Assembly (NCBI RefSeq): GCF_001647285.1
Contig: NZ_LRML01000007.1
Span: forward strand, 124,001-188,000
From: Rufibacter roseus
Lineage (GTDB): Bacteria > Bacteroidota > Bacteroidia > Cytophagales > Hymenobacteraceae
DNA length: 64,000 bases
Direction of reading: 5' to 3'
Shown: one piece after another, positions 11,958 through 60,543 of the stretch
Numbering within the stretch: the stretch's first letter is position 1
Layout: the number at the start of each line of letters is the position of its first letter
Translations under genes and position numbers: made by a program
The notes under the pieces: model-generated
Databases searched by the model: none
Seen by the model: the letters and a program-made list of their open reading frames with translations, nothing else
Told to the model about the DNA's origin: nothing

Positions 11958-11960
11958 AGG

Positions 11961-40284: not shown

Positions 40285-41310
40285 ATGGCCACGAATAAAA
40301 ATGCAATGCTTAGGTACATGGTACTGGACAATTGTTTCAGAAACACGGGAAGGCGCTATTTTATTCAAGACCTGATAGAGGCCTGTAACCGACAACTTTT
40401 GGAAATTGACCCAAACTCAAAAGGAATAAGTCGAAGGCAGATATTGGATGACATAGCTTTTATGGAAAGTGGAGAAGGTTGGTCTATTGAGCTGGCCAGG
40501 TTCCGCGATGGGAAAAAAGTATACTACCGATACGAGGACCCTTCTTTCTCCATCAACAACATGCCTTTGAATGAGGTTGAGGTAAACCAATTGAAAACTG
40601 CTGTAGAAATTCTTTCCCAATTCAAAGGCATGCCTCAATTTGAATGGGTACATGAGCTACTTCCAAAACTTAACCAAGGCCTCTCAACTACTAAGACTGA
40701 AAGTACAATTATCGATTTTGACAGTAATCAATATCTTAAAGGTATAGAACACTTAGGCACATTACACAGTGCCATCTACCATAAGAGAGTATTAAGCATT
40801 AAGTATCACCCATTTGAGGTTGATCGACCTTATGATATTGAAATTCACCCCTACTATCTGAAGCAGTATAACAACAGGTGGTTTTTGTTCGGGTATAATC
40901 CTTATTCAGATCGGTCAGACTGGAATTTAGCCCTTGACCGGATATTAGACATCAATGAAATTAATGACAAGTATAAACCTAACAAAACCATCGATTGGGT
41001 TGAATACTTTGATGATATTATAGGGGTTACCAGGCCGGTAGATGGTGCTTTAGAAACTGTACTGTTACACTTCGCCGGAAGAACTGGTAAGTATATTGAA
41101 TCTAAACCAATTCATAGTTCACAAAGGACCAAATGGATAAATCCTGAATTACTTGAGGTAAAAATAGAAGTGATGATAAACTATGAATTAGAGAGGCTAA
41201 TTTTATCGTATGGCAGTAGTGTCAAGGTAATTAGTCCAGAATCACTCAAAAACAAGATTACAGATAGCCTCCAAAAGGCTCATTCACAATATCTACTGAG
41301 CGGAGATTAG
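40285..41310 (+). CDS. WYL-domain transcriptional regulator of the defence island
   Basis: This 341-residue protein has an N-terminal winged helix (about 1-70, 'GISRRQILDDIAFMES') and a WYL domain at about 155-245 ('KRVLSIKYHPFEVDRPYDIEIHPYYLKQYNNRWFLFGYN'). The C-terminal WCX-like domain runs to the end. WYL regulators such as BrxR and CapW repress defence operons through inverted-repeat operators and respond to nucleic-acid ligands or infection cues. Here four copies of one operator lie at island promoters, including its own. The gene is divergent from the retron and convergent with the restriction operon. Confidence 0.9.
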   Translation: MATNKNAMLRYMVLDNCFRNTGRRYFIQDLIEACNRQLLEIDPNSKGISRRQILDDIAFMESGEGWSIELARFRDGKKVYYRYEDPSFSINNMPLNEVEVNQLKTAVEILSQFKGMPQFEWVHELLPKLNQGLSTTKTESTIIDFDSNQYLKGIEHLGTLHSAIYHKRVLSIKYHPFEVDRPYDIEIHPYYLKQYNNRWFLFGYNPYSDRSDWNLALDRILDINEINDKYKPNKTIDWVEYFDDIIGVTRPVDGALETVLLHFAGRTGKYIESKPIHSSQRTKWINPELLEVKIEVMINYELERLILSYGSSVKVISPESLKNKITDSLQKAHSQYLLSGD

Positions 41311-41440: not shown

Positions 41441-44400
41441 CTATGCCGCCAAAATCCTACGTAATGTGTCTTGCATAGCAGATTTGAAAGCATCATCTTT
41501 TGAGATAAGCCTATATAAGTCAAGCTCATTTTTACGCTGCTTTGCCATCACATCTTCAAATATCTTCTTGAAAGCGATTTCCCTGTTCTGAACATCTTTG
41601 TTATCTGAGTACTTTTCCTGAAAGTCAGGATGGGCTCTCATGCTTTGTGCTAGGGAGACAAACTTTACCTTTTGTTCTTCAGGAGTTGCTTCCCAGCCTT
41701 GGAACCAGCGTTCATTGAATGCTTTGATGATTAAGTCAAGTGGATTTTCTTCAGAGTCTCCACCATGAGCACTTCTAGGATTAGGGTTCTGTGGCTCTAA
41801 TTCTGTTTCTGAAGCATCCAGACCAATGTTAGCACTTAACTTCACCCTTTCCAATCCATAAGTAGACAGGTCAACTGAATTCAACAGCCCATCTAATGCA
41901 TCCTGGATTGGGTCAGCAATAACTAAATGGGGAATCAAGAACTTCAGTAACCAGAACAGCTTTTCCCACTTGACTACTTCAAAAGGAAGAATAGAAGCCA
42001 TTTGGCCGTAAATCTTCACAAACTGCTTTGCCTTGATTTTAAAGTCAGCTTTAGCTTTGTCGTCTAATTCTAGGCCTTGGTTGAAACGTTCTGCAGCAAC
42101 CTGAATGATTGGGCTTAGGTACTGTTCCGCTTCTAATCCTTGAAAATAGTTGGCAGTGAATTCCTCTACTTCTGACCATTCATATACCCCTGCTTCGTCC
42201 AAAGAGCTTTTTAACTCGTGTAGGACATTTACATCCGTTGCCTTGCTAAGCGTTGTGGAAGTGTAGAAAGGATCAAATGACTTCTTAATATCATCCACAG
42301 AATTAAAGAAATCCAATACAAACAGGTCTTCCGTTTTCTTTCCAAGCTTATTAGCGGACCGGTTTAACCGGGAAAGAGCCTGTACTGCCAATACTCCTTG
42401 CAGCTTCTTGTCAACATACATAGCTGTAAGCTTCGGCTGGTCAAAACCTGTGAGGTACTTGTTGGCGACAACCAAAATACGGTACTCATCCATATTGAAG
42501 TACCGGGCAATTTTATCAGAAATATAGCCTGGATCTGTAGGCTTGGCTGTATCTAGCTGAGGTGGAAAATTGTTTATATCATCCTCAGTGTACTCAATAC
42601 CGTCTACTTTCTTCTTCCCAGAAAAAGCAATAGCAATCTTGAATGGGTTGCCTTTGCTTTCCACCAATTTCTTTAAAGCAAAGAAATAGCGAATGGCTGA
42701 TTCAATGCTCTGGGTAACGACCATGGCTTTAGCTTTGCCTTTGAGCTTTTTGGTATTAACCACTTTGGTCAGGAAGTGATCAAGCATGATTTCAGCCTTG
42801 GTGGCGATGGTCTCTGGGTTCCGTTCTACAAAGGCACGTAATTTCTTTTGTGCTTTAACTGTATCAAAGATGGGGTTATCCTCAATAGACTTTTCAATCT
42901 CGTAGTAACTTCTGTAAGTGGTGTAATTAGCCAGCACATCCAGGATAAACCCTTCTTCTATGGCCTGTTTCATAGAATACAGGTGAAAAGGTTTGAACTT
43001 TCCATCTGGTTGTTTTACACCAAATTTCTCTAGCGTATTATTTTTAGGCGTTGCAGTAAATGCCAGGTAAGAAGCATTCCCCCGCATTTTACGACCTTTC
43101 ATAGCTGCCAGAATCTTATCCTGAGGATCTGGATCTTCCTCTTCTTCACTACTGGTGTTGCCCATTGCCTTATTCATATTATCAGCCGCAGACCCGCTTT
43201 GGCTACTGTGAGCCTCGTCAATGATTACCGCAAAGCGTTTTTCACTTAAGTCAGCTATACCGTCAATAATGAATGGGAACTTCTGAATGGTGGTAATAAT
43301 GATGCGTTTACCAGCTTCTAAACTCTCTTTTAGCTCCCTAGAGGAATAGGCGGGAGCAACAATGTTTTTAACTTCTGAAAACTCTTTAATGTTCTCTCTT
43401 ATCTGTTTGTCAAGCAGCCTTCTGTCTGTGACCACAATAACTGAATCAAACAAAGGGTTCTGAACTCCCTTGCTACCTGGTATGGAATCATTCTCAGGAT
43501 ATGTTTCTATAAGCTGAAAGGCTGCCCAGGTGATGGAATTAGACTTTCCAGAACCTGCAGAATGCTGTATAAGATAGGTTTGCCCCACGCCATTTTTGCT
43601 GGCATCAGAAATCAATTTACGCACCACATCTAACTGGTGATAGCGTGGAAAGAAGAGAGTCTTCTTATTCAGCGGATCAGTGTCTTTGCCGTCAAAACGA
43701 ACAAAGTGCTGGATAATATTGGCTACACTCTGCCTGGTTAATACCTGATCCCACAAATAACTGGTTTTATGCCCAAACGGATTTACAGGATTACCCTTGC
43801 CGTGGTCACAACCTAAGTTGAAAGGCAGGAAGAAAGTCCCATCATCTCCTGTGAGCTTAGTGGTCATGTACACTTCGTTCGTATCTACGGCAAAGTGCAC
43901 TATACACCGGCCGAAGTTGAGTAGCGGCTGGGTAATATCTCTCTTAAATTTGTATTGATTTTGGCCGTGAACTTTGGCATTTTGACCAGTCCAATGGTTT
44001 TTCAGTTCAGCAGTAGCAAATGGTAACCCGTTTACAAAAAGAACCAGATCAATTTCTTCTAATGGATTCTTGATAGAGTAGCGTACCTGCCGGGTAACAC
44101 TAAACTCATTGCTCTCAAACCTCTTTTTAACGGTATCGCTACTGCTAGCCAATGGAGAGGGAAATAGCAACGTGAACTCAGCATCATCTACTTCTAAACC
44201 TTTTCGTAAGATTCTCAGAATACCGTATTTCTTGATCATCTTATCCAAACGATCCAGAATCTTCAACTTCCAATCGCTTTGCTTCTGTAGCTTAGCTAGC
44301 TCCTCTTTTTGGGTAGTTTCAAGAAAGTGCCAGAAACGATGCTCGTCTATCGCATATTTAGAATTAAAATCATCTGGATAGCCAATAAAGTAGCCATTAC

Positions 44401-44536
44401 CTCCACGATACATCTCTTTTCTATCAGCAACTGAATTTAACACTGGATCCAGTTCCTGAAGCTCTTCAAGGCAAGTACCAGTTAAACGTTTTTCAATGGC
44501 TGCTTCTAAAGCTTTCTCGTTGGTAAGACTAGGCAT
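41441..44536 (-). CDS. hsdR: Type I restriction endonuclease subunit R
   Basis: This 1031-residue protein has an N-terminal PD-(D/E)xK nuclease part at about 155-185 ('LEEIDLVLFVNGLPFATAELKNH', with D and E-x-K). The translocase motor has Walker A 'HSAGSGKSNSITW', Walker B 'FAVIIDEAHSSQSG' and 'AFTATPKN', followed by a helicase C part ('YRILVVANKYLTGFDQPKL', 'ALSRLNR'). It cuts unmodified DNA after translocation, as part of HsdR2M2S1. It is the last gene of the restriction operon and starts two bases after the stop of a DUF262 gene. Confidence 0.95.
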   Translation of the reverse strand: MPSLTNEKALEAAIEKRLTGTCLEELQELDPVLNSVADRKEMYRGGNGYFIGYPDDFNSKYAIDEHRFWHFLETTQKEELAKLQKQSDWKLKILDRLDKMIKKYGILRILRKGLEVDDAEFTLLFPSPLASSSDTVKKRFESNEFSVTRQVRYSIKNPLEEIDLVLFVNGLPFATAELKNHWTGQNAKVHGQNQYKFKRDITQPLLNFGRCIVHFAVDTNEVYMTTKLTGDDGTFFLPFNLGCDHGKGNPVNPFGHKTSYLWDQVLTRQSVANIIQHFVRFDGKDTDPLNKKTLFFPRYHQLDVVRKLISDASKNGVGQTYLIQHSAGSGKSNSITWAAFQLIETYPENDSIPGSKGVQNPLFDSVIVVTDRRLLDKQIRENIKEFSEVKNIVAPAYSSRELKESLEAGKRIIITTIQKFPFIIDGIADLSEKRFAVIIDEAHSSQSGSAADNMNKAMGNTSSEEEEDPDPQDKILAAMKGRKMRGNASYLAFTATPKNNTLEKFGVKQPDGKFKPFHLYSMKQAIEEGFILDVLANYTTYRSYYEIEKSIEDNPIFDTVKAQKKLRAFVERNPETIATKAEIMLDHFLTKVVNTKKLKGKAKAMVVTQSIESAIRYFFALKKLVESKGNPFKIAIAFSGKKKVDGIEYTEDDINNFPPQLDTAKPTDPGYISDKIARYFNMDEYRILVVANKYLTGFDQPKLTAMYVDKKLQGVLAVQALSRLNRSANKLGKKTEDLFVLDFFNSVDDIKKSFDPFYTSTTLSKATDVNVLHELKSSLDEAGVYEWSEVEEFTANYFQGLEAEQYLSPIIQVAAERFNQGLELDDKAKADFKIKAKQFVKIYGQMASILPFEVVKWEKLFWLLKFLIPHLVIADPIQDALDGLLNSVDLSTYGLERVKLSANIGLDASETELEPQNPNPRSAHGGDSEENPLDLIIKAFNERWFQGWEATPEEQKVKFVSLAQSMRAHPDFQEKYSDNKDVQNREIAFKKIFEDVMAKQRKNELDLYRLISKDDAFKSAMQDTLRRILAA

Positions 44537-44538: not shown

Positions 44539-46470
44539 CTAGTTTAAATTGTTAAGTTCATTAAAAAGAATTTGCTTCATCTGGCTTCCATGGTTTCGGA
44601 TTTCAGTAGTGCCCCAATGCACGTATTTCATCATTAGTTGCTGCTTAAGGCTATCAGCTCCTACTTTATAATAGTAGTCTTTTTTAGCGGCAGGTAGATT
44701 GTTACTTAATTTAGAATTTTTACTGCTACTGATCAGGCAGAGGTTGCCGAATTCATTAAGCCCCTCTTTAAGGCGGTCAATGTTGCCTAATGGATTCTGT
44801 GGGTAATAATGCTCAACGGAGTTACTAAAGCTGAATTCAAATTTCTGATACCCTTCAGATTTTTTCTTCCAAAGCAGATAATCAAGATAATTAAAAATGA
44901 AGTTCTCTACAGCCGTTCCCTGATTAAGTCGATCTTCATTTAACTCTTCTTTTGCAGGTGTGACTACATTCTTGAAGATGATCTGATAGTAATCATCTGG
45001 TTCTGCCTTTAGGTAACGATTGAAAAGATAGCGTCTAGCTAAATTCTCCAGATAATTCAGGTAAGCAGCAGAGTCAACAGTTTCTTGTTCAAAAACAAAC
45101 TTTAAGGCGGCGTTCAGCCAGTGCTTATATACCTGTGTTGGGGCAGATACATGGAACATAGCTAGCATCATTATTAGGCTTTGGTTTTCTCCTTCTTGTG
45201 CTTCTTCAGCACCAAAAGAGTTTACATAGCTCGCGCTATTGTTTTGTTGCCATTTTAGCCGCTTCAGACTCCATCTTTCCTGCTCCTTCAATACCTCCCG
45301 CTTCAGAATGTACTTATCGAACAGGTATCGGACTTTTAACAAATTGAAGCCAAATTTCTGTACAAAGGCTATTGGTCCCTCTTCATCCTTCTTAAGATAT
45401 TCGTCGAAGGTGTCAAGTAATCTTTTGTCATCCAGTGGCACGTTCTGCTTCGTCTGAAGGCGAAGAACATGCAGGAGGAAGTTAGGGAAGCTGATAACTG
45501 AGGTAAAACGTTCAGGCGCTTCACCAGCTTCTTTTATATAACCTATTTGAAAAGGGCTAGCAGCTATTATTTCGTCAATACTAAGACTTTTAAACTCAGC
45601 TTCATCCTCTGTAATATATCCAGTACCAGAACCTGAGTTACCGAGAAAGCTTTTTAAATCTTCAAAGCTGTTTGCTTGAAAGGTATCCCAATCTTTTGCT
45701 ACAAACAATGTATCACGTTGTGCAGGGCTAAATCCATATTGCACATAGCGCTCCATGTCTGAGCATGCTTCCCATACTTTATTGAAAGCAATGCTGGCTT
45801 CTGTGTCATCCTGAATTTTTTCAAGAAGCCTCGCCTTCAGAATTTCATGCTTCTCCAGCTGCTCACCTCGGTTGTTCATTATTTCAAAGTAGTGGTTCAG
45901 ATTTGTGTCTTCTGGTACCCCCACTCTTAAAATGAACACACGCTTCATCAGGTATTCATAAAAATCATTAATACCTATTTCTGTTTCTCTTGTGATCTTC
46001 TCTAAGCCTGTTTTTGCAATTGTATAAGCTCTGCGAATAACAGGAGCATATGATTGGCTTTCCTGAAAAGGTACTACATCTGTATCGGCAGCAATTACCT
46101 GTAACGTTTCGGTTGCCAATGGCCGACTTTCAAAAGCTAAGTTTAGACCCTTTCTGTGAAGCAAGCACTTCAACTCGTCTCTAAACTCTCGCTTAAGTAC
46201 ATTAAGCAGTATGTTAAGAGTAGTTAATCGCTGCTGCCCATCTATAGTCTCATAAAGCGTATTACTAGTATTGCCACGCTTGTAAATAACCAGGGTACCA
46301 ATGTAATAATTGGTGTCTGGATAGTGAGTAGCATAATCGGCTATGTCCTGGATTAGCTGATTTATTTCTTTAGCCTCCCAAGCGTAGTTCCTTTGATAAA
46401 CAGGAATCAGGTACTGATCCGCATCAAAGAGTTCCTGGATGCTAAGGGTTTTAATATATTGGTTGCTCAT
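44539..46470 (-). CDS. DUF262 and DUF1524-type (GmrSD-like) protein
   Basis: This 643-residue protein begins with a DUF262 ParB-like NTPase domain: 'QYLIPVYQRNYAWEAKEINQLIQDI' and 'LYETIDGQQRLTTLNILL'. Towards the C-terminus, 'EFSFSNSVEHYYPQNPLGNI...LNEFGNLCLISSSKNSKLSNNLPAAKK' matches the His-Me-type nuclease DUF1524 (H in 'VEHYYPQ', N in 'KNSKLSN'). This is the architecture of GmrSD type IV restriction enzymes, which cut modified (glucosylated hydroxymethylcytosine) DNA. Its 5' end overlaps the second DUF262 gene by four bases. Embedding in a type I operon would cover both unmodified and modified invaders. Confidence 0.85.
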   Translation of the reverse strand: MSNQYIKTLSIQELFDADQYLIPVYQRNYAWEAKEINQLIQDIADYATHYPDTNYYIGTLVIYKRGNTSNTLYETIDGQQRLTTLNILLNVLKREFRDELKCLLHRKGLNLAFESRPLATETLQVIAADTDVVPFQESQSYAPVIRRAYTIAKTGLEKITRETEIGINDFYEYLMKRVFILRVGVPEDTNLNHYFEIMNNRGEQLEKHEILKARLLEKIQDDTEASIAFNKVWEACSDMERYVQYGFSPAQRDTLFVAKDWDTFQANSFEDLKSFLGNSGSGTGYITEDEAEFKSLSIDEIIAASPFQIGYIKEAGEAPERFTSVISFPNFLLHVLRLQTKQNVPLDDKRLLDTFDEYLKKDEEGPIAFVQKFGFNLLKVRYLFDKYILKREVLKEQERWSLKRLKWQQNNSASYVNSFGAEEAQEGENQSLIMMLAMFHVSAPTQVYKHWLNAALKFVFEQETVDSAAYLNYLENLARRYLFNRYLKAEPDDYYQIIFKNVVTPAKEELNEDRLNQGTAVENFIFNYLDYLLWKKKSEGYQKFEFSFSNSVEHYYPQNPLGNIDRLKEGLNEFGNLCLISSSKNSKLSNNLPAAKKDYYYKVGADSLKQQLMMKYVHWGTTEIRNHGSQMKQILFNELNNLN

Positions 46471-47915
46471 GGGAGATAATGCAAACTTTTAAATAGATCT
46501 ACAATTTCCTTTATCTGTGTTGCCTTTATCTCTTTTGGAAGAGTTAATGAAATTCCTAAGATATCCGCTGGGCGAAGAGCTTCACGCATTTTTTTGAATA
46601 CTCTTTCACTCTCTTTAGTGTGATTATCCATAGATGCCAACCTTACCGAATACTGCTGCAGGCGTAAGCTGTAAGCCCAGACAAAGAACTTTTCAATAGC
46701 ACGGTCAATTTCAACTGTGCCAAACTTATCCAGGTAATAGAGCAGGCAACAATCAAAGAGATTGCGTACATACTTATCACCTAAGCGGTCCCGGCTGGGA
46801 TAGCTGTCCAATGTTTTCAATATTTTATAAGCGGGCGAATCTTCATTCTCTTTCAGTTGATGTTTTAGCTCTTTCATCTGCTTGAGCAGCGATTGGTAGT
46901 GATTGACTAGTTCAAAGAAGCGTTTGCCATTCATTAACACACCATCTAACTGAAAAGGGAAAGGCATGACCACACCATCTATCTGGCGGTGGTACTCCTT
47001 GTTATAAGCATCTATGTAAAAGTGGCCAATGCGATGTAAGGCAGCGAATGGCATTACTTCTTTTACCTGTGGACTTACTCCTTTGAACACACCTACATCG
47101 TTCTTGGTAAAGTAACGCGCTGAGTAGCCTTTTGACCATTTGCGTACCCTGTATAGGTAGTTACCAAACAAACTGGCGAGATGTTCTGTATCCATTGCCT
47201 CCCAAGCTGCTACGCTATCAAGTTTCTCCTGTTCAGTGGAGGAGTGCGACATTTCACGCAGGTGAAATGCTTTTAATAAATCATGCGGCTCCAGGTCACG
47301 GCCTCGGGCATTCTGAGAATCGAAAAATTGAAAGGCTTCGGAAATGTTTCTGATGACTACCTCAACCAATTCGCAGTTGTAATAGAAGAAGCGCACAGCA
47401 TCTACGTCAAACTCACGCACTCTCCTCTTTATCTCTTGGTAATTCTGTTGGATGTTTTTCTGTGAAAGCCTGTCACTGAACTTGAGAGCGGCCAACTGCG
47501 GTCTGTAAGCAGGCAGATTCTCTTCTTTGCTTATTTGCTTTAACAGCTCCTTCTGTGTGTCATATATAGCTAGTGCAATTAGGGTAAGCGTAATGCTACG
47601 CTGCTGACCATCTACAATGTGAAGTTCCTCTTGGCCTGGTTCCTGATGCATCACAAGGGTACCTAAGCGATAGGCAGAACGCTTACGGTGCAACAGAATA
47701 TCATCTAATAGCTGATTTACATTATGCGTAGACCACTTATATGGCCGCTGGTAATAAGGAATCTGAATTTTAACATTAGCCAACAGTTCCTTTACCTTCA
47801 CCAAGCGCGGTTCATAAGCAAAGCCATGAAAAACCGATTCTACTCTTGCTAGTAATTTAGAAATCTGTTTGGCTTCAATAGTATCTTCAAGTATTGCGAG
47901 TTGAGCTTCTTCCAT
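46467..47915 (-). CDS. Second DUF262 protein of the restriction operon
   Basis: This 482-residue protein has 'IQIPYYQRPYKWSTHNVNQLLDDI' and 'LHIVDGQQRSITLTLIALAIYD', the DUF262 signature. After 'FQFFDSQNARGRDLEPHDLLKAFHLREM', also typical of the family, it lacks a clear DUF1524 His-Me nuclease, so it may be a GmrS-like partner or a regulator of the next gene. It starts two bases after hsdS and overlaps the next DUF262 gene by four, so all are one transcript. Confidence 0.82.
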   Translation of the reverse strand: MEEAQLAILEDTIEAKQISKLLARVESVFHGFAYEPRLVKVKELLANVKIQIPYYQRPYKWSTHNVNQLLDDILLHRKRSAYRLGTLVMHQEPGQEELHIVDGQQRSITLTLIALAIYDTQKELLKQISKEENLPAYRPQLAALKFSDRLSQKNIQQNYQEIKRRVREFDVDAVRFFYYNCELVEVVIRNISEAFQFFDSQNARGRDLEPHDLLKAFHLREMSHSSTEQEKLDSVAAWEAMDTEHLASLFGNYLYRVRKWSKGYSARYFTKNDVGVFKGVSPQVKEVMPFAALHRIGHFYIDAYNKEYHRQIDGVVMPFPFQLDGVLMNGKRFFELVNHYQSLLKQMKELKHQLKENEDSPAYKILKTLDSYPSRDRLGDKYVRNLFDCCLLYYLDKFGTVEIDRAIEKFFVWAYSLRLQQYSVRLASMDNHTKESERVFKKMREALRPADILGISLTLPKEIKATQIKEIVDLFKSLHYLP

Positions 47916-47916: not shown

Positions 47917-49191
47917 TTAGTAAACTTTGATTTTACCCGTTACCGCACTATTAATTAAGCTTGCCTTATACTCCTTCAGTTTTTCAATTTCTTTTTCAAT
48001 TTTAGCAATGGCATTGTTTGTTTTAATGGTTATTAAGTCAGAATAAGCAACAATTTCATTTTGCTCATCCAATGGCGGTGTGATAGACTTTATATCATAA
48101 AAATTTTGATTCGATAGGTTTTGTAAACCAATTGTCATTCCATTTGAAGCACCAGCATAGACGGTTTTGTAAATTTCTGTATGAAATAATAACTCATAGT
48201 ACTTCGTGTTTACTCCTACTTCCGGCTCAAAAACACCATAATGAAAAGTCACTATTCCTCTGTACTTTGATTCGAAGAATACACCTAAATGTCCTTTAAA
48301 CCTATTCACAACAAGATCTCTAGGCATACAAAGTTTGAAATTATCTCGGTGAGCCGGACTTAGAGAACGTTCCTTCATAGTTTCAGAAGGAATAACTCCA
48401 TCCACTTGAGAGAGCGACAAGGGAAGCTCATAAGAGTTAGTGATCTTCCTACTATTTTCACGAAATAATCTTCTGTTGTATAGAACTTTCCAATGCGCCG
48501 GTATTTCCCCAATCCATTCCACACCACTGTCTTTCATGGGTGCATCAGGATTTAGACCACGGATAACGGCATTTTGGAGGAGTACTTGCTTGCGCTCTTT
48601 GAGTAGTTCTATCTGCTTTTCTTTTATACCAATGGCTTTGTCAATCTGAGCTGTTTTGCGGTCAAGGAATTGGGAAATAGCAGTCTGTTCTTCTTGTGGA
48701 GGGAATAACAACAAACTATTTGCAATATGATTGAAGTTGATAGTCTGTCTTACCCCTGACCCAAGAAGTTTCATATAGGCTACATCATACCGATGAAGCA
48801 GGTATTTGAAGTAATCTTTGTTGATATCGATGATATTGTTAAGCACAATATATCCTGAGCTAACAACAACATTAATTTCAGAAAGGGCTATCCTTAAACT
48901 GATTAAGTCATAATTTAGATTTAATGGATTTATTAAAAATTCCCCTTTTAGAACTTCCTGATAAGAAGCCTTAGTTGATAGAGGAATTTTTTCATCATTC
49001 TTTACTACGACTTTTCCAAAGCTTATTGAACCGCAATTCAATTCTGGATTATGTTTGATTTTTTTCTCTTTGAAAATAAGCTTAAGCTTAATGATCTCCC
49101 AATGCTCAGGAATTTCACCAATCCAATCTTCGCCCGAATCCTTGTAGGCAGGATATTTTATTACTTGCACTTCTTCTGCTATCGCTTCCAT
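47917..49191 (-). CDS. hsdS: Type I specificity subunit S
   Basis: This 424-residue protein has two target-recognition domains. Each opens with the hallmark 'SGEDWIGEIPEHWEIIKLK' / 'SGVEWIGEIPAHWKVLYNR', and each ends in a coiled helix ('QTAISQFLDRKTAQIDKAIGIKEKQIELLKERKQ' and 'EIVAYSDLITIKTNNAIAKIEKEIEKLKEYKASLINSAVTGKI'). It determines the recognition site of both methylase and nuclease. It overlaps the hsdM stop by one base. Confidence 0.94.
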   Translation of the reverse strand: MEAIAEEVQVIKYPAYKDSGEDWIGEIPEHWEIIKLKLIFKEKKIKHNPELNCGSISFGKVVVKNDEKIPLSTKASYQEVLKGEFLINPLNLNYDLISLRIALSEINVVVSSGYIVLNNIIDINKDYFKYLLHRYDVAYMKLLGSGVRQTINFNHIANSLLLFPPQEEQTAISQFLDRKTAQIDKAIGIKEKQIELLKERKQVLLQNAVIRGLNPDAPMKDSGVEWIGEIPAHWKVLYNRRLFRENSRKITNSYELPLSLSQVDGVIPSETMKERSLSPAHRDNFKLCMPRDLVVNRFKGHLGVFFESKYRGIVTFHYGVFEPEVGVNTKYYELLFHTEIYKTVYAGASNGMTIGLQNLSNQNFYDIKSITPPLDEQNEIVAYSDLITIKTNNAIAKIEKEIEKLKEYKASLINSAVTGKIKVY

Positions 49192-51539
49192 TATGCTAAG
49201 GTTAAGATTTCACGGATCAGACCATCACTCTCGGCTTCTAGTGCCAAAATATCATGGCTCACTTCTTCAAGGCTGCGCAAAGACTTGTGGCGGTAGAAGT
49301 ACTTGTTGAAGCTGATCTCATAGCCAATTTTGATGGCATCTAAGCTAATCCAGGCCTCGGCAACGTGTGGTTTCACTTCGCGTTGGAAGTAGTCATAGAT
49401 GTTGTCCTTCAGGGGCACGTTCTCGGTATCCCGCAGGTCGCTTTCGGTCTCATACTCCAGGTACTCGCCTTTCTTGCCCGTAGCGTAGTAGCCAAAGTCT
49501 GCCAATTGGCTTTCCTCACAACCCAGGTATTCAAGCAGTTTCTCCAGCTTTTCACCTGTCAGTTTGGTAATGCCTTTCTCTACTTTTTCGGCAGAGGCAT
49601 CATACCAGGTCACGGCATTTAGTATGGCCTTCTTCTCTGTGGCAGAGAGTTTAATTTTTCTGGCTTTCAGTTCTGCTTCTACCTGCTCCCGGAACACATT
49701 GAAGTCATGGTACTCTTCTGAACCAATGGCCAGCATGAGTTCGGTAGCGGTGTTCAGCAAGTCCAGTCCTTTCTGCCAGGTGTCTTTACTCACCAGGGCT
49801 TTCGCCTGCTTGGCGTTCAGGTTCAGTTCTTGTTTCTCGGCGTAGTCCAGAATGGCTTTCTCGTGCTGTTCAAGGTGAGTATACACTTCCTCGCCAAATT
49901 GGTCAAACGCCCACTCCATGGGCTCCCGCAAGGCCTTGTCAAAGCGCAGTTCCGCAATACGCTCGGCGCTAAACTGCGCCCTCAGGCGCTTAGGGCGTTC
50001 AATGGTTACTTTATAGTAACCGAAATCAGCATTATCAAATACTTTAGAGGCAATGCCTTCGTCACCTTCGAGCTCCACCGCCTGCATTTGCTCGTACACG
50101 TTCACAATCTCCCTAATGTGCTCGGGCGAGAACTCGCAGTTCTTGTTGCCCAGGTTCTTGCGCAGCTTGCGGTACAACTGCCCGGCATCTATCAACTGCA
50201 CCTTGCCTTGGCGGTGCGGAGCCTTGTTGTTGCTCAGTACCCAGATATAGGTGGTGATACCCGTGTTATAGAACATGTTGTTGGGTAACTGGATGATGGC
50301 TTCTAGCCAGTCATTCTCAATGAGATAGCGGCGGATGTTGCTTTCGCCCCCTCCGGCATCACCGGTAAACAAGCTGGAACCGTTGTGCACCGAGGCAATG
50401 CGTGAGCCGGTTGGGCTCTGGCTCAGCGGCTTCATTTTGTTCACCATCTCCATCAGGAACAGCAACTGCCCGTCAGAAGACCGGGGCGTCGCATCCTCGT
50501 CTTTATCGGTTCCCCAGTAGTCCTTCAGCTTAATCTGGAAGCGTGGGTCAATGATGTCTTTGCCGTCTTTGATGTACTTCTGCTCACTCGCCCATGATTT
50601 ACCGTACGGCGGGTTAGACAGCATGAAATTGAAGTTCATGCCCGCAAATTCATCTGTGCTAAGAGTAGAGCCTACCCGTATGTTCTCAGGGTTATTACCC
50701 TTGATCATCATGTCAGACTTGCAGATGGCGTAGGTTTCGTCATTAATCTCCTTTCCGAACAGGTGCACATCTCCAGTGGCTCTGATTTCCCCTTCCTCGT
50801 CTTTGATGAAGTTCTGAGACTCAGTAAGCATACCTCCAGAGCCGCAGGCCGGGTCATAGATAGTGATCACCGGTGGCAGGTTGTCTTTTACAGGCTCAAA
50901 GATGACGTGGGTCATCAGGTCAATCACTTCCCTTGGCGTGAAGTGCTCCCCGGCTTCCTCGTTGTTCTCCTCGTTGAACTTCCTGATCAGCTCCTCAAAC
51001 ACGTAGCCCATGCCCAGGTTGCTCAACGGCGGCAGCTTTCTGCCGTCTGGATCGGCTTTCTCAAAAGGAGTGAGGTTGATGTACGGCGAGGTGAATTTCT
51101 CCAGCACGTTCAGCAGCACATCTTTGTTAGCCATGTGCCGGACCTGGCTCTTCAGCTTAAATTTCTCAATGATCTCCTTCACATTGGTGCTAAAGCCATT
51201 AAGATAGTCTTCAAAGTTTGCCTGAAGGATTTGCTGGCTGTTGGTGGCGGTATCATGCAAGCGCTGCAGAGTCCACTCACTAGTGTTGTAAAACACGTAA
51301 CCAGATGCCTGGCGCAAGCCACTTTCATCCCACTCAGTAAATTGAGCCTCATCGCGCTGGAAGGCTAATTCTTCCATCACGGCATCTTTAGTAGGTTCTA
51401 AGAGTGCATCTAAGCGACGTAACACTACCATAGGAAGAATTACATCGCGGTATTTGCCGCGCACATATACATCACGCAGACAGTCGTCTGCAATAGACCA
51501 AATAAAGGAAACTAGTTTGTTGTGTACTGCTGTATTCAT
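49191..51539 (-). CDS. hsdM: Type I DNA methyltransferase subunit M
   Basis: This 782-residue N6-adenine methylase has an N-terminal HsdM_N helical domain, SAM motif I 'ITIYDPACGSGGMLTES' and catalytic motif IV 'FNFMLSNPPYGKSW'. It is longer than the classical 500-residue enzymes by a C-terminal helical extension of about 250 residues. It protects host sites and is the first gene of hsdM-hsdS-DUF262-DUF262-hsdR. The 114 bases upstream (51540-51653) could hold a promoter; no WYL operator is seen there, but read-through from the methyltransferase-kinase operon is possible. Confidence 0.95.
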   Translation of the reverse strand: MNTAVHNKLVSFIWSIADDCLRDVYVRGKYRDVILPMVVLRRLDALLEPTKDAVMEELAFQRDEAQFTEWDESGLRQASGYVFYNTSEWTLQRLHDTATNSQQILQANFEDYLNGFSTNVKEIIEKFKLKSQVRHMANKDVLLNVLEKFTSPYINLTPFEKADPDGRKLPPLSNLGMGYVFEELIRKFNEENNEEAGEHFTPREVIDLMTHVIFEPVKDNLPPVITIYDPACGSGGMLTESQNFIKDEEGEIRATGDVHLFGKEINDETYAICKSDMMIKGNNPENIRVGSTLSTDEFAGMNFNFMLSNPPYGKSWASEQKYIKDGKDIIDPRFQIKLKDYWGTDKDEDATPRSSDGQLLFLMEMVNKMKPLSQSPTGSRIASVHNGSSLFTGDAGGGESNIRRYLIENDWLEAIIQLPNNMFYNTGITTYIWVLSNNKAPHRQGKVQLIDAGQLYRKLRKNLGNKNCEFSPEHIREIVNVYEQMQAVELEGDEGIASKVFDNADFGYYKVTIERPKRLRAQFSAERIAELRFDKALREPMEWAFDQFGEEVYTHLEQHEKAILDYAEKQELNLNAKQAKALVSKDTWQKGLDLLNTATELMLAIGSEEYHDFNVFREQVEAELKARKIKLSATEKKAILNAVTWYDASAEKVEKGITKLTGEKLEKLLEYLGCEESQLADFGYYATGKKGEYLEYETESDLRDTENVPLKDNIYDYFQREVKPHVAEAWISLDAIKIGYEISFNKYFYRHKSLRSLEEVSHDILALEAESDGLIREILTLA

Positions 51540-51653: not shown

Positions 51654-52586
51654 CTAATTGTTAACAAATCCGGTGAAATCCAAATTATTCAGAACTAATG
51701 CTTGCCTGTAGCACTCAATTAAAAACTCTTCTCGTGCTTCTGTTAATTCATACTTCTGCATAGGAGTCCAAAGGCTTTGGGGGACATTATCAATACTTAT
51801 ATACAACTCTATATTAGTACTTTGTAGAAAATTAGCAAACATTTCAACTCTTCTATTGTCAGTAAAATGAATACCTCTAGTTTTTGGGGTGGGCAACAGG
51901 AAAACTTTGTAAGTTCTATTTTCTACTATACAAGTAAAGCCCCAAGTTCTTCCACCTATTACTCTAGGTTCATGTATTTCAAGGTTGTCAAATAATGACC
52001 GAAACCATCCAAATGGGCTTTTCCCATCTATTCCATTGGCTGTAAAATACAAATTATTTATTGTAGGAAATCTTTCAAGCGTATTCCGAAGATTATAATT
52101 TAACTGAAGATTATCTTTGATATTTTGATTCACTCCATCATCTGTAATCCACAAGTTTGAATCTTCACTGCTCTTCTTCCTCCTATTGGTCCGGAGGATT
52201 ACATCTGTTATCAATAAATCATTAGATTGTAAAAAATCTATCGTTCTTTCTCTAACTAAATCAGGTAGACTAGTCAAGTTATCTCCAGCCATGGCTAAAG
52301 TAGGATCTAATACACCAAATGCTGCAGTACTATATTTCCAAAGGTTGCTTTTCTTGCTCCCATAAAAGAACCTCATTTTTACCTCATTTAAATTTAACCT
52401 TTGCTGAATAACATTAAGGTTAATATCAAGTGTGTCAGTACAAGCGTAAATGGGAAAAGAGCCTATTATTATTCCTGAATAAGCAGGTTTTGGAACCACA
52501 TTGAAATCTTCTAAATAATTCAGATATGGATGTCTCTCCAACTCATTAATAGGCATACTTAAAAATTTTAATTTGGGGTAAGACAA
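51654..52586 (-). CDS. Uracil-DNA-glycosylase-superfamily-like protein
   Basis: This 310-residue protein shows features of the UDG fold. 'YSGIIIGSFPIY' (about 37-47) resembles motif A (GxxP). 'FFYGSKKSNLWK' (73-84) resembles the Y-x-x-x-x-N-x-F/W element of the MUG/hypoxanthine-glycosylase branch. A possible motif B is 'VFLLPTPKTRGIHF'. The catalytic polar residue is not clear. It is the third gene of the methyltransferase-kinase operon. A base-excising or nucleic-acid-binding effector is possible; known glycosylases acting on modified phage bases give a precedent, but this is inference. Confidence 0.55.
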   Translation of the reverse strand: MSYPKLKFLSMPINELERHPYLNYLEDFNVVPKPAYSGIIIGSFPIYACTDTLDINLNVIQQRLNLNEVKMRFFYGSKKSNLWKYSTAAFGVLDPTLAMAGDNLTSLPDLVRERTIDFLQSNDLLITDVILRTNRRKKSSEDSNLWITDDGVNQNIKDNLQLNYNLRNTLERFPTINNLYFTANGIDGKSPFGWFRSLFDNLEIHEPRVIGGRTWGFTCIVENRTYKVFLLPTPKTRGIHFTDNRRVEMFANFLQSTNIELYISIDNVPQSLWTPMQKYELTEAREEFLIECYRQALVLNNLDFTGFVNN

Positions 52587-52602
52587 ATATTAAAATAGAA
52601 AA

Positions 52603-53832
52603 TTAATTACTTGGAGTTTCAATTTTTATATTTTCAATTAAGGTTTTGGTGCCTGTTCCATCTTGCTTTGTAGTTACCTTAATTTCTTGTTGTTCTTTTA
52701 AATTAAATTCTTTTACCTTGGGAGGTATAATACTTAAAGTTTTGCTCCCATTTGAGGGTTGAAAGGTTCCATAGCCGTTTTCTGCAATTTTGACCACTTT
52801 CCCATTTACCCACTCTCCATTATTTAGCGGCAGAGAAGTGGGAATCCAAAAAACTTGATTCTTCTCCTTATCTGGATTGTCTATAAAATAACTTTTAAAC
52901 CATATTAAAATGTCTATTAATTGAAAAGTTAGACTGTAGAGTAGATAAGGTGTATCAACGTACTTTCTGTACTCCGCAATTGAAGCTCTTCCTTCGGGCG
53001 TATTCTCTCCTTCTGTATGTGAAGCTGCTCCTGTGATGGATACTATTGCCCAAGCATTATCAGCTATTATCTTGGGTAAGTGTGCTTTACCGCATTTAAT
53101 ACCTAAATGCTTAGTGTCTTTCCCAGCCAAAAACAAGCAAGATTCTGATAAATTGACTTTACCTCCTTCTAAGCACTTATCATGTAGCAGACCTTGTTTG
53201 TTCGCTTCTCTAAATAATTGTTCTAAAATAATTCTGATTTGGGTGAAGTAAAGCTTATCATCAAAGGGAGTAGCAGGGGTTTGCGTACTTTTCAAAATTT
53301 GCAGAAGAAATTTTTGAGCTTCAGCTCCTAGAGCTTCACAGGCATCAAAAGCTCTTGGAAACATGTGTCGAATCTTAGTATCCTCTACTCCATTAGCTTC
53401 AACCTTAATAAGTTCAAGTAACGCCTCCAAATCATCGCCATTTTTTTTATCGAAGCATCTTTTATTGTATGCTTTGAGTATACCATTTTGCTCCTTAGTG
53501 AAAGAATCTTGACCAGAAAGAATAAACCAAGGCATTAACTTTTGTGACTTAAGTTCATTTAGGCGAGAAACAGCTTTTACCAAACCTTCCACATCTTCCT
53601 CTCCTCTTACTTGATCTTTTTTAGCAAAAAACAAAGCATCTAAAAGCACTCCATCGTATTTGATAAGATCATTTTCAAGTACATTAAAACCTTCTTCAAA
53701 GGATTTATAACCCTCTAAATCAATACAATTATTATCAGCTAAAATAACAAAGTCATCAAACTCTTCAATTTTATCATCAATCCAAAGAATTCTATATCTT
53801 TTATTCATATCTATTATTTCCTTGACTGCCAC
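52603..53832 (-). CDS. Receiver protein of the methyltransferase-kinase operon
   Basis: This 409-residue protein begins with a complete receiver: D19-D20 in 'RILWIDDK', D65 in 'GVLLDALFF', S106 in 'WFILSGQ' and K129/K130 in 'CFDKKNG'. The middle part (about 150-330) is helical. 'QIRIILEQLFREA' and 'IVSITGAASHTEGENTP' recall HEPN/DUF4145-like helices, in which the catalytic Arg seems lost. The C-terminal 70 residues ('VNGKVVKIAENGYGTFQP...') look like a small OB/CSD fold. It overlaps the upstream methyltransferase-kinase gene by 32 bases, indicating tight coupling. It is the natural phospho-acceptor partner of that kinase. Confidence 0.75.
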   Translation of the reverse strand: MAVKEIIDMNKRYRILWIDDKIEEFDDFVILADNNCIDLEGYKSFEEGFNVLENDLIKYDGVLLDALFFAKKDQVRGEEDVEGLVKAVSRLNELKSQKLMPWFILSGQDSFTKEQNGILKAYNKRCFDKKNGDDLEALLELIKVEANGVEDTKIRHMFPRAFDACEALGAEAQKFLLQILKSTQTPATPFDDKLYFTQIRIILEQLFREANKQGLLHDKCLEGGKVNLSESCLFLAGKDTKHLGIKCGKAHLPKIIADNAWAIVSITGAASHTEGENTPEGRASIAEYRKYVDTPYLLYSLTFQLIDILIWFKSYFIDNPDKEKNQVFWIPTSLPLNNGEWVNGKVVKIAENGYGTFQPSNGSKTLSIIPPKVKEFNLKEQQEIKVTTKQDGTGTKTLIENIKIETPSN

Positions 53833-56350
53833 TAATAGGTATATAAATTTCGTAAACTGTTGTGAATGGAAAAGTCAGATACGGATCCGTCATCAAATCT
53901 AATCTACCACCATGCCATTTCACGATCTCATTAATATGGTAACCTCCTATTCCTGAGTTGCCTGTAGAACCTCCCACAGCTCCCTTTCTAGTAAGTTTTT
54001 CTATATTGAAATTATGAGGAAATGCCTTTCCATTGTTTGCAACTTGAATGTATAAATAGGCAGAAGTTTGAGTAAGATAAAGATCTAAACGAAACTCTAG
54101 CACATATTTCTCATTATCCTTGACAAAAGCGTGTTTCTGTGCATTTTCTACAATATTGTTAAAAGCTATCTCCAACAATTCTTCATTTGCTTTTATAAAT
54201 GCACCTTCTTTAAAATCTTCCTCTACATCTGAAGAGACTTCTAATCTTACTTCAAACTTATTTTTATCATTAGCTCTTAGCTCATTGACAAATCTTTGAA
54301 AGAATTGTATCGCGTCAAATTGAGCCAAAGGGTATGTACTTTTATCTAGTTCAAGCTCATTGGTCTTTAAGAGATTCGAGATCAGCTTTAAATTCAAATA
54401 CAGAGAGTTAACAGCATCACCTAATGTTTGATTGCTCTTGCTACTCATCTTTACACTCTGCCATTCATGGTCTAATTTATTCAATACACTCTCTATATTT
54501 CTGACTGAGGCGTTGAGCTTAAGTAAAGGCGTGCCCATGGAATGCTTAATAGAGGCGAGCTCCTCATAAGCTTCCTTTTTAATACCGATACGCTCATCTT
54601 CCAGTGTTTTAAAAGTAGCTCCAATGATTTTGGCTCTTTGTTCCCTCAAAGCAGGAACCTTCACCCTCACTTTGATAAAATCATTGATAGGAATATAAGG
54701 AATAGTGGTACCTGTGCGGTACTTGTTAAGTTGAGCAGTAACATACTCTGTGGAAAGCTCCTGAACCAAAAAGCCTACATCAACTTTCTGCTCGTTTACC
54801 TCAAACGCCACTACGTCAGGTGAAACGTATATTGGTTCCCCTTTGTATTCAAAGAATGTCGGTTTAAGGGTCTTCCATCTAATAGTAATTAAAAGCGCAG
54901 ATTTATCTAACTTAGAGGCATTTTTAGGTAAATCTACTTCTACTAACTCATTAACCTTTATCTCAAAGTCAAGCTTATCGTTGCTAAGATCTCTTATGCG
55001 AATTAACTTTCCTGAAAGGCCATCTCCAATTTTGGAACCTTTTACTGGTTTAAGGAGCTTGCCAAGTTCTACATATTCTCCGTCCAGATCTTCCAGCAGC
55101 TCTACAGTAATATAACGGTTAACATTCAACATGAAATCGTTATTAACAACTTCTTCAATGTAAACCAGCTTTGCCTCCGGAAATGCAGTAGTAGAGGCTT
55201 CTGACAATGAACTGTCAGTATTGGTAATTATTGAAAGCAGTCGATCAGCATCAATCCTTTTATCGTTTTTGGAAACCTCTTTTACAGAAGTTTCTGCATC
55301 TATAAAGAGAATTTTACTTCTGTCTTGCTTTACCTTATTTAGCACAATCACACAAAAAGGCAGATTTGTATTTGACAAGAGACCACCAGGAAATGAAATA
55401 ACGGTTTCTAAAAAATCATTCTCCACTAACACCTGTCGTAATCTTGCATACTCAGGTTGTTTATTAGTTAAGAACCCAGATGGAAGAACAAATATGGCTT
55501 TGCCATTTTCTTTAAGAGCAGCTAAAGAATTATTTATTAGAAAGGTGTCAAAATATGAAGGTTGAATACTTGAATAACCATCACGATGATACTTAAGCAA
55601 ATTAGCCTCATCTTTCCTGATCTTCACATTGAACGGAGCGTTCGCTACAATTAAATCATACCTTTTGGAGCGTCTGTTCCAATTTGCGATAGAATTACCA
55701 ACCACAAAATCAGAATTAGACGCCTTACCTGCACCCAAAAGGCGAATCATTCCGATAGCCCAAGACCTCATGTTGATTTCTTCGCCGGTATAATTAACAG
55801 GTTTATCAAAGTATAAGCCAAAGGAAGCAAGGCCTCCAAATGGGTTATAAACTTCTGCCCCTGCATATGGGCTTGCTAAGGCACAAATAAACCTCGTTAA
55901 CTCCAGGGGCTGTACATACTCTCCCCCATGCTGCCCTTCAGTTTTGGATAATCTGAAAATTAAGTTTTCGACTAAATCTCCAAAATGTATGTCAAGCGAG
56001 TCTCTGTCCATTGAACAAATAAGACGGAGGAGATCATAAAAGTTATGTTCGCTTACATACTGTATAGCTGGATAAAAAGCATCATATATAAGCCTATTCA
56101 GCTCAAACTTTTCTCTATCTCCTCTTGAAATTGAAAGTCTCAAGTCTTCTTTTGCTCTTCCAGGCTCAGTGGTGATGAAAAAGTCCAGTGCACCTTCTTT
56201 TTGGAGAAACAGAAGATATGTTACTAAGTGAAAATCCTGGAAGTGCACTTGCTGCTCTCTTATTATGCTCAATGCATCCCATAACTTATGTTCAAGGGTG
56301 GTAAAAGATTCAGTAGAAGAAAGCATAGAAAAGGAATTGGTTAACATCAT
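53801..56350 (-). CDS. DNA methyltransferase fused to specificity domain and histidine kinase
   Basis: This 849-residue protein has three parts. Residues about 1-410 are an N6-adenine methyltransferase of HsdM type, with motif I 'VYNPFGGLASFGLYF' (about 167-181) and motif IV 'IVANAPF' (NAPF 237-240, in place of NPPF/Y). About 420-585 is a single HsdS-like recognition domain ('LIRIRDLSND...YRTGTTIPYIPINDFIKVRVKVPALREQRAKI'). About 595-849 is a histidine-kinase transmitter: H-box 'IKHSMGTPLLKL' with H603, N-box 'FNNIVENAQKHAF' (about 730-742), G1-like 'VANNGKAF' and G2 'GNSGIGGYHI'. A kinase directly on a DNA-modifying enzyme is very unusual. A WYL operator lies 33 bases upstream. Confidence 0.85.
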   Translation of the reverse strand: MMLTNSFSMLSSTESFTTLEHKLWDALSIIREQQVHFQDFHLVTYLLFLQKEGALDFFITTEPGRAKEDLRLSISRGDREKFELNRLIYDAFYPAIQYVSEHNFYDLLRLICSMDRDSLDIHFGDLVENLIFRLSKTEGQHGGEYVQPLELTRFICALASPYAGAEVYNPFGGLASFGLYFDKPVNYTGEEINMRSWAIGMIRLLGAGKASNSDFVVGNSIANWNRRSKRYDLIVANAPFNVKIRKDEANLLKYHRDGYSSIQPSYFDTFLINNSLAALKENGKAIFVLPSGFLTNKQPEYARLRQVLVENDFLETVISFPGGLLSNTNLPFCVIVLNKVKQDRSKILFIDAETSVKEVSKNDKRIDADRLLSIITNTDSSLSEASTTAFPEAKLVYIEEVVNNDFMLNVNRYITVELLEDLDGEYVELGKLLKPVKGSKIGDGLSGKLIRIRDLSNDKLDFEIKVNELVEVDLPKNASKLDKSALLITIRWKTLKPTFFEYKGEPIYVSPDVVAFEVNEQKVDVGFLVQELSTEYVTAQLNKYRTGTTIPYIPINDFIKVRVKVPALREQRAKIIGATFKTLEDERIGIKKEAYEELASIKHSMGTPLLKLNASVRNIESVLNKLDHEWQSVKMSSKSNQTLGDAVNSLYLNLKLISNLLKTNELELDKSTYPLAQFDAIQFFQRFVNELRANDKNKFEVRLEVSSDVEEDFKEGAFIKANEELLEIAFNNIVENAQKHAFVKDNEKYVLEFRLDLYLTQTSAYLYIQVANNGKAFPHNFNIEKLTRKGAVGGSTGNSGIGGYHINEIVKWHGGRLDLMTDPYLTFPFTTVYEIYIPISGSQGNNRYE

Positions 56351-56382
56351 TTCGTTTTGATGTTACAAACTTGAGGACTAAC

Positions 56383-56401
56383 AGTGAAGTGGAACTGCAC
56401 A
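56383..56401 (-). promoter_or_regulatory. WYL-regulon operator before the methyltransferase-kinase gene
   Basis: AGTGAAGTGGAACTGCACA matches the reference palindrome at 16 of 19 positions, with one half site (ACTGCACA) intact. On the minus strand TTG (56402-56400) leads into it. It ends 33 bases before the start codon, the same position as the helicase copy. Confidence 0.75.
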
Positions 56402-56599
56402 ATTGAAGTAAACTAAAGAAAGTATTAGCTTTTAGCAAGCATTACTTGCTTTTATAAGGCCATACTTACATTCAAACTAAATATCAGCCTCTTAAAATTC
56501 TGGTCTATTCTGTTACCTACTAAATTTGAATAGAACATATTTTCATTAATTACTTTTTGGGAGTAGGTTCAAATGTATTGTGAACTAAAAGCCTAATTT

Positions 56600-56620
56600 G
56601 TGTGCAAAATGTGTGCAAAT
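56600..56620. repeat. Direct repeat GTGTGCAAA(A)T
   Basis: GTGTGCAAAAT and GTGTGCAAAT stand in tandem, 65 bases inside the right island boundary. Short direct repeats near an element end may be integrase arm sites; with no tyrosine integrase in the window, this stays a guess. Confidence 0.4.
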
Positions 56621-56625
56621 AAAAA

Positions 56626-56657
56626 AGCCACTTACAAGTTTTACCTCGTAAGTGGCT
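56626..56657. terminator. Hairpin at the right island end
   Basis: AGCCACTTAC (56626-56635) and GTAAGTGGCT (56648-56657) form a perfect 10-bp stem preceded by an A-tract (six A), which would give a U-tract on the minus strand. It is suited to stop minus-strand transcription from the prophage side before the island, although no gene ends immediately before it. Confidence 0.6.
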
Positions 56658-56665
56658 GATTTTCA

Positions 56666-56725
56666 GGTGGGCCCACTTGGAACCAAGCAAATGCCTAATT
56701 ATCAGCTTAATAGAAATTTATTTTC
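56666..56725. other. Right island boundary: tRNA-tail-like, att-like sequence
   Basis: GGTGGGCCCACTTGGAACC and the following CCTAATTATCA segment align imperfectly with 26573-26639 in the same orientation. It resembles the 3' part of a tRNA read on the minus strand but is not a complete tRNA. Prophage genes start about 165 bases beyond. The remaining bases from 56726 to 56891 hold no gene seen. Confidence 0.4.
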
Positions 56726-56891
56726 AAAAAGGGGGCGTTTTAGGGTGTTTTATTGGCGCTTTCTAACAACAAACCCCGCCGCTTAGGGCAGGGTCAGTTG
56801 ACGTCAAAACCGGGTACCAAACCGGCTCTGTACAAATATACGAAATTCTCTACATAGTAGGGCTAAAACTCAAACAACTTATACCCCACGC

Positions 56892-57386
56892 TCACGCTGG
56901 AATAGCCATACGCCAAAGCATAGGGGCGAACTGCCTTATTGCAAAACCCACGCCTGCAGCTACCACATACCACCAAAGCGACCCGCCCCCTTGTTTGTTG
57001 GAAGCCGTGGCCTCGGCGTCACCGTCTACCTTTGAACCCTGACCGCCCGTGTTTGTTGTTTCGGCTGTACTGGTGGCACTCCTTTTTACTTTGCTGTTAT
57101 CAGCTCCGCCCTGTTCATTAGCCCCTATGGTAGACCCACCCGTGGCCGTTTGGCTGTTCACGTTTATAGTGACGTTCTTTAGTTTCGTTTTGGAGCCGGT
57201 GCCGAATACCCTCTGTATAAGGGTAGGCTTTTGCATAGGCACGTGTGCCATACACGGCCGCACGAGACTGTCTACTGATAGTTCCACCGCCATAATGTGA
57301 ATGGGGTCTAAAGGCTTTGTGGTTTTACAGCCCACAAGCAGCAACGCCACGGCTGCGATTAGGTGAATAGGTCTGATGGTGGGCAT
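56892..57386 (-). CDS. Candidate unimolecular spanin (lysis lipoprotein)
   Basis: This 164-residue protein has a lipoprotein signal at its N-terminus ('LIAAVALLLVGCKTTKP', Cys20 lipobox). Its central part is low-complexity (Ser/Thr/Gly/Asn), and a hydrophobic segment lies at the very C-terminus ('LWWYVVAAGVGFAIRQFAPMLWRM'). An outer-membrane lipid anchor plus a C-terminal inner-membrane helix in one chain is the architecture of u-spanins, which fuse the membranes at the end of phage lysis. It lies 3 bases after the endolysin stop. Alternative: an unrelated small lipoprotein. Confidence 0.55.
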   Translation of the reverse strand: MPTIRPIHLIAAVALLLVGCKTTKPLDPIHIMAVELSVDSLVRPCMAHVPMQKPTLIQRVFGTGSKTKLKNVTINVNSQTATGGSTIGANEQGGADNSKVKRSATSTAETTNTGGQGSKVDGDAEATASNKQGGGSLWWYVVAAGVGFAIRQFAPMLWRMAIPA

Positions 57387-57389
57387 GGC

Positions 57390-57968: not shown

Positions 57969-57970
57969 GG

Positions 57971-58264
57971 CTATTCGTCTTTATTGGTTTCGGTTAATCC
58001 TGCCTGTATGTTCCTAATCTTACTCCATGCGGTGATGCCAACGCCACCTACCACAATTGGAACCCAAACCCACAGAACCTCCACGTTTGGCTTAGAGACC
58101 GCAAAAGACTGTTCCGGCCAAAGGTGCATCTCTACCACGTCCGCTAGGCTTAGGAACATTATAAAAAAGAAAGCCAACCATGACATTAACCTCTTCATGG
58201 AGTATCTCCCCGTTATCGCGTTCTTGGTGGTGTCGTTCCAGATTTGTTTAATAGTGCCTAACAT
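57971..58264 (-). CDS. Small two-helix membrane protein of the lysis cassette
   Basis: This 97-residue protein has two hydrophobic helices ('LMSWLAFFFIMFLSLADVV' and 'VLWVWVPIVVGGVGITAWS') and a charged C-terminus. Size and position two bases before the endolysin gene make it a holin candidate; no family is recognised with certainty. Confidence 0.6.
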   Translation of the reverse strand: MLGTIKQIWNDTTKNAITGRYSMKRLMSWLAFFFIMFLSLADVVEMHLWPEQSFAVSKPNVEVLWVWVPIVVGGVGITAWSKIRNIQAGLTETNKDE

Positions 58265-58291
58265 TATCTTTTCTTCTTTAAATTATCCACG

Positions 58292-59061: not shown

Positions 59062-59104
59062 TACTCACTCATTTCATTTAAGCCGCGGCCTGTTATCGTT
59101 TCGT

Positions 59105-59311: not shown

Positions 59312-59315
59312 AGCT

Positions 59316-59522: not shown

Positions 59523-59526
59523 AGCT

Positions 59527-60540: not shown

Positions 60541-60543
60541 GGT

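Follow-up and report, generated by a model that had tools for sequence, protein, structure and literature searches.

A methyltransferase-like histidine kinase and its receiver partner recur beside type I restriction operons in Bacteroidota

What might a protein do that carries the folds of a type I methyltransferase (HsdM) and specificity subunit (HsdS) on one polypeptide with a histidine kinase? Such a fusion (849 a.a.; 53801..56350, minus strand) is encoded in Rufibacter roseus (GCF_001647285.1, contig NZ_LRML01000007.1, positions 124,001–188,000 of the forward strand; this whole stretch of 64,000 nt is called the window here). It is followed on the same strand by the genes of a receiver protein (52603..53832; 409 a.a. 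as listed, with a probable start at ATG 53808) and of a glycosylase-like protein (51654..52586; 310 a.a. as listed, with a probable start at ATG 52556). A preliminary description had read the three genes as one phosphorelay, apart from restriction–modification; the genes themselves were confirmed. Comparison with homologous loci leads us to consider the fusion and receiver, at about an even chance, a portable two-component defence module that sits beside type I operons and acts as a guard of, or a back-up to, restriction; its trigger, phosphotransfer, output and role in defence we infer from sequence.

A fusion and a receiver that travel together

Fusion and receiver genes are adjacent, on the same strand, in 55 of the 59 loci that we mapped (some stretches are short, and many contigs end early), with gaps from −35 to +49 bp. 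Two of the four exceptions (L072 and L106) have a receiver without a fusion call beside it, on short contigs; in the other two (L102 and L103) the receiver is broken or was not recovered as an open reading frame (ORF). The two proteins also co-evolve: pairwise identities of the fusions correlate with those of the receivers at r = 0.90 (n = 49), with those of the WYL regulators partially (0.44, n = 32) and with those of the HsdM proteins hardly at all (r = 0.08, n = 38).

The pair recurs across Bacteroidota. The receiver search of a phylum sample had matches in 12 of 395 genomes, and setting aside one that spans only 69 residues leaves 11 of 395 (window genome counted); in a class sample 27 of 395 genomes matched, from which 14 were kept (E-value 6.2e-24 or better) and 13 dropped (8.5e-6 or weaker). 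A scan of named genomes gave 44 loci, 36 of which were examined (L111–L118, matching 57–65 query residues only, were dropped), and one Myroides plasmid and one faecal phage scaffold were further sources. When the fusion sequence alone was the query, an initial scan of genome contigs gave no matches; a fusion profile found 12 out of 350 genomes, all 12 with a receiver by the phylum or class receiver search, but 10 of them, that of the window among them, had contributed to the profile, so that only two (G178 and G289) were new to it. Left out of all counts are L034 (a weak match of 82 residues) and L036 (a glycosylase relative only). L079, identical to L064, is excluded from counts with an n of 54 or 49, and the five partial fusions (out of 54) from those with an n of 49; the receivers of L065 and L066, 98.5% identical, are both counted.

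The fusion consists of an HsdM-like N-terminal part and methyltransferase fold (residues ∼1–420), a single HsdS-like recognition region (∼440–580) and a histidine-kinase region (∼585–849). The HsdM fold is found by Pfam scans and by profile comparison, and the kinase region has a profile match to solved kinases. We looked for losses of the two phosphorelay residues across the homologues: H603 (codon 54542–54544) is present in 51 out of 51 readable rows (of 54 fusions) and D65 of the receiver (codon 53638–53640) in 55 out of 55. The other kinase residues are equally well kept (N736 in 53/53 fusions; G774, G800 and G802 in 54/54). The receiver fold (residues 11–148) is complete with acid pair, phospho-Asp and Lys: D20 and K129 are also in 55/55 receivers, and D19 is E in three of the 55. 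Since the search patterns for named genomes contained the stretch LWIDD, D19 and D20 were partly selected, whereas H603, D65 and K129 were not; the gene label 'fusion' requires a kinase- or TRD-profile match and so leans on those profiles, H603 having been counted afterwards on the alignment. Domains, residues and pairing thus bear out the kinase–receiver pair with a methyltransferase-like, HsdS-like sensor that the preliminary description had proposed.

Behind its receiver domain, the partner protein has a helical middle domain (150–325), with conserved R200, E204 and H272 (R200 and H272 each in 54 of 55 receivers), and a cold-shock-like C-terminus (∼340–405; E-value 5.5e-4 against PDB in profile comparison), which is absent from shorter homologues. 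The R200/E204 and H272 pattern brings HEPN domains to mind, and one homologue (L104) has an HEPN_Apea match of 0.024, under the cut-off. A fold search with a model of the receiver protein barely probed the middle domain, its list being filled by receiver matches. The window protein has no Pfam match, and no library match to a helix-turn-helix was obtained in the receiver proteins scanned. In one receiver protein (L035, 2438–3385) a Schlafen AlbA_2 domain (6.4e-15) replaces the usual helical output.

Genomic context of the pair

The preliminary description had set this signalling system apart from restriction–modification, but its conserved neighbourhood says otherwise: in 38 out of 54 loci an HsdM gene is no more than three genes away on the same strand (39 on either strand; 40 anywhere in the stretch). 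In 26 of the 54, HsdM directly follows the pair, and of the 47 loci with at least three ORFs available downstream, 34 have it within the following four genes. HsdS is found in the stretch in 34 and HsdR in 30 out of 54 loci. A WYL regulator occurs in the stretch in 39 out of 54, and in 30 it immediately precedes the fusion gene. The partner HsdM proteins (n = 39) fall into six groups at 30% identity, so the link to type I restriction has arisen repeatedly.

Judged by its sequences, the pair is a portable module that has attached itself to type I operons repeatedly, because the fusion co-evolves with its receiver and not with HsdM, and because similar HsdM proteins occur beside a distant fusion or without a receiver match. 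For example, the window HsdM is 82% identical to the HsdM of L028, whose fusion is only ∼30% identical to that of the window. HsdM proteins at least 67% identical to that of the window are found in eight out of 395 genomes, two with a receiver and six (67–82%) without a receiver match. Six control loci have the same HsdM–HsdS genes and no pair in the stretch (two of them, L162 and L163, are cut short near HsdM by the end of the contig, and only the genome-wide receiver search is informative there). One control locus (L160) has the HsdM–HsdS–GmrSD–GmrSD run of the window and no pair. In that locus an ORF of 1599 a.a. (7941–12740) with DEAD/Helicase_C and UvrD helicase domains occupies the place of the pair, directly upstream of its HsdM (82% identical).

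In the window, the pair is followed on the minus strand, past the glycosylase-like gene, by HsdM (49191..51539), HsdS (47917..49191), two GmrSD-type proteins carried as cargo by the type I operon (a GmrSD_N + DUF7834 protein, 46467..47915, which occurs in the pair-less control locus too, and another at 44539..46470) and HsdR (41441..44536; matches to HSDR_N, SWI2_SNF2 and T1R_D3-like). A WYL-WCX regulator (40285..41310, plus strand) is at the far end of the operon. The genes between HsdS and HsdR vary among loci and include GmrSD types, AAA_15, DUF3644 and proteins without a Pfam match. The HsdR-type protein of one homologous locus (L025, 336–3830) has an N-terminal DUF4145 domain (5.4e-7). 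DUF2130 proteins recur by the pair, either between WYL and fusion (L070 and L109) or between receiver and HsdM (L075 and L099); all four ORFs tested matched.

Some copies of the pair are in mobile settings, such as the Myroides plasmid. The run WYL–fusion–receiver–HsdM is also found on L073 (MT835483.1), deposited as a faecal phage scaffold. In an IMG/VR provirus of 43.9 kb (L011), the fusion, receiver and glycosylase-like genes sit at the end. Within 51654–64000 of the window, the ORFs from ∼56.9 kb onward look phage-like by eye; no tRNA was found in the window by ARAGORN.

A possible alarm on restriction, and its alternatives

As the fusion retains the shape of an HsdM–HsdS assembly, it can touch what that assembly touches: it could contact unmodified DNA, the HsdM–HsdS complex itself, or phage proteins that block this complex. 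Binding would turn on the kinase half, which would phosphorylate itself at H603 and then hand the phosphate on to Asp65 of its receiver partner. The phosphorylated receiver may then free the C-terminal half of its protein, that is, the helical domain with the conserved R, E and H and the cold-shock-like fold, a putative nucleic-acid-binding part. Once freed, this half would act on nucleic acid, most likely RNA, and halt the growth of phage or cell as a back-up to restriction. A stronger version of this proposal, which we hold only tentatively and think less likely than the general one, makes the pair a decoy-based immune receptor: a disarmed methyltransferase–specificity copy joined to a kinase would guard restriction, and its binding of DNA-mimic phage proteins that block HsdM–HsdS, or of DNA left uncleared by the restriction complex, would trigger a relay ending in a suicide effector that acts on RNA. 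The sensor would then change fast and hop among unrelated type I operons as guards do in an arms race. If the proposal is right, restriction systems have an alarm wire, a phosphorelay started by a methyltransferase-shaped sensor, with two-component signalling and restriction joined in one polypeptide; the pair would be a testable candidate for how bacteria detect blocked restriction.

Several observations weigh against a restriction-linked relay of this kind. HisKA kinases have an acidic residue directly after the phospho-His, whereas position 604 of the fusions is mostly T or S with no conserved acidic residue, so the fusion is not filed as an ordinary HisKA kinase; the G1 box of kinases normally has an Asp, which is replaced by Asn in 53 out of 54 fusions. 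Autophosphorylation of the fusion therefore cannot be assumed from its residues, though neither change rules activity out. The HEPN reading of the middle domain is not significant (hhalign against DUF4145 relatives only aligned the R/E and H), and damaged copies of the pair occur (L067 and L102). Moreover, in 13 of the 47 loci with downstream room, HsdM is missing from the following four genes: four of these (L033, on the opposite strand, L068, L087 and L093) have an HsdM upstream, and the other nine have none in the stretch, which indicates that restriction is not strictly needed.

Does the fusion still methylate DNA? The motif IV pattern [DNS]PP[FYW], searched anywhere in the protein, is present in all 39 adjacent HsdM proteins longer than 400 a.a. 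(one of 40 HsdM neighbours was shorter and excluded), but in only 18 of 49 full fusions, while the kinase residues are never lost; the methyltransferase fold of the fusion is therefore probably its sensing part and not an enzyme. The contrary explanation, that the fusion methylates adenine, has an HsdS-like specificity of its own and reports the methylation state through its kinase half, without the glycosylase being involved, could draw on motif I, which is well kept in the main clade (mostly NPFAG), and on the 18 fusions that keep motif IV, including those of Flavobacterium (L077), Formosa (L078) and Sphingobacterium (L093). With a less strict pattern, 32 of 49 fusions match, so part of the family may retain some methylation activity. 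We nevertheless think this explanation unlikely, given the 31 fusions without motif IV (that of the window has NAPF instead) and a group (L030–L032) that has lost motif I as well; of the DNA methyltransferase in the preliminary description, the HsdM-like fold stands and the methylation is doubtful. Least probable of all is that the phosphate signal controls the glycosylase-like protein. Its gene is on the same strand as the receiver gene and only 16 bp downstream of it in the window, but it was found in just one of the 59 mapped loci (some of them on short stretches), that of the window, and the trio was rejected as a unit. A homologue exists in two of 395 genomes, the window's included, and the other (L036) shows no fusion or receiver nearby. 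No relatives were found in plasmids or phages, and viral contigs gave none besides the provirus copy of the window locus. Judged by this distribution, the gene is an accessory peculiar to the window locus and does not belong to the module. The likeness of its product to glycosylases, which the preliminary description had placed near the UDG superfamily, is weak: a relative 36% identical to it matches TIGR04274 at an E-value of 0.073, a model that the window protein does not reach.

A closer competitor to the proposed defence module is regulation: the pair might serve the type I system itself instead of being an effector arm, with the relay tuning restriction or methylation (e.g. after DNA entry) and the cold-shock-like domain acting on hsd mRNA. 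The immediate adjacency of HsdM in about half of the loci, the frequent WYL regulator and the cold-shock-like output would all suit such a role, whereas the lack of co-evolution between fusion and HsdM is unexpected for a regulator of that HsdM, and pairs without HsdM in the stretch (e.g. L080, L082 and L101) and the Schlafen-type domain on one receiver also speak against it; we regard it as rather improbable. It is very unlikely that there is no functional link at all, the pair being a signalling module that has nothing to do with restriction and frequently ends up in defence islands. Damaged copies, and copies without HsdM in the stretch, would fit such chance landings, but HsdM lies close by on the same strand across six HsdM groups, at a frequency far above what is expected from a few hsdM genes per genome (the R. 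roseus genome has eight N6_Mtase matches, fusion included).

Comparison with known systems

The proposed defence module is close in kind to Detocs, a two-component-like phage defence system in which a TPR protein serves as sensor and a phosphorylase as effector, alongside a decoy receiver. Both have a kinase-like sensor and a receiver-bearing effector, and phospho-signalling, known for Detocs, is predicted for the pair; they differ in that the sensor of the pair is HsdM/HsdS-like and its output helical and cold-shock-like, and no match to a TPR or phosphorylase domain was obtained in library scans of fusion and receiver. Extra guard-like modules on type I operons are also known: PrrC consists of one anticodon nuclease and, unlike the pair, has neither kinase nor receiver. 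With type I restriction–modification itself the pair shares the HsdM and HsdS folds, as an extra module riding on the operon. That histidine kinases signal in conflict systems has been proposed before and is accepted; in 2020, Burroughs and Aravind reportedly described histidine-kinase based prokaryotic immune systems. The HisKin-conflict family (PF22561) is similar in this respect, but the window fusion has no match to it at E ≤ 1. MADS (methylation-associated defence) likewise has methylase and specificity subunits, and the HsdS-like region of the fusion weakly resembles MAD5, though with 18.5 of 400 bits, far under the NCBIfam cut-off; a MAD2 match belongs to the adjoining HsdM and is also under the cut-off. 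No library model names the pair: Pfam, PADLOC and NCBIfam scans of fusion and receiver (PHROGs was not among the libraries) returned component domains only.

Methyltransferase-associated McrBC operons with two-component genes, as far as the source was covered, are McrB GTPase operons (PMC11090510); they resemble the pair in combining, within a single defence operon, a methyltransferase with two-component genes, but no methyltransferase–kinase fusion was found in the parts covered. Pfam recognised no McrB GTPase operon genes among 20 proteins of homologous loci. The portions covered of DefensePredictor, with eight selected predicted systems and UDG, HATPase and REC among the legend abbreviations, likewise yielded no methyltransferase–kinase fusion. 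In the covered parts of the literature searched (PMC12839542, PMC13092281, PMC7641849, PMC8195603, PMC7159879, PMC11090510 and PMC7824862; Burroughs and Aravind 2020 was not covered) we found no description of the fusion family or of a methyltransferase-shaped input to a phosphorelay.

The same island of the window has a second kinase–receiver cluster (31295–39864, minus strand), in which a retron-like reverse transcriptase (RT) is fused to a HisKin-conflict domain (PF22561). Further members are an ORF of 227 a.a., a protein of 656 a.a. with a weak receiver match (3.3e-4, under the cut-off), a TBP-TOTE helicase (PADLOC PDC-M16A) and a DUF7017/S1CSD-TOTE protein (PDC-M16B). Comparison of the kinase domain of the fusion with the RT-HisKin protein of the window gave nothing. 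A cluster of the same RT-HisKin/TOTE type, 64–92% identical, is found in Pontibacter flavimaris (L080, 1–11182), just upstream of a fusion–receiver pair with an ORF of 104 a.a. between them; that pair is only 36–39% identical to the pair of the window.

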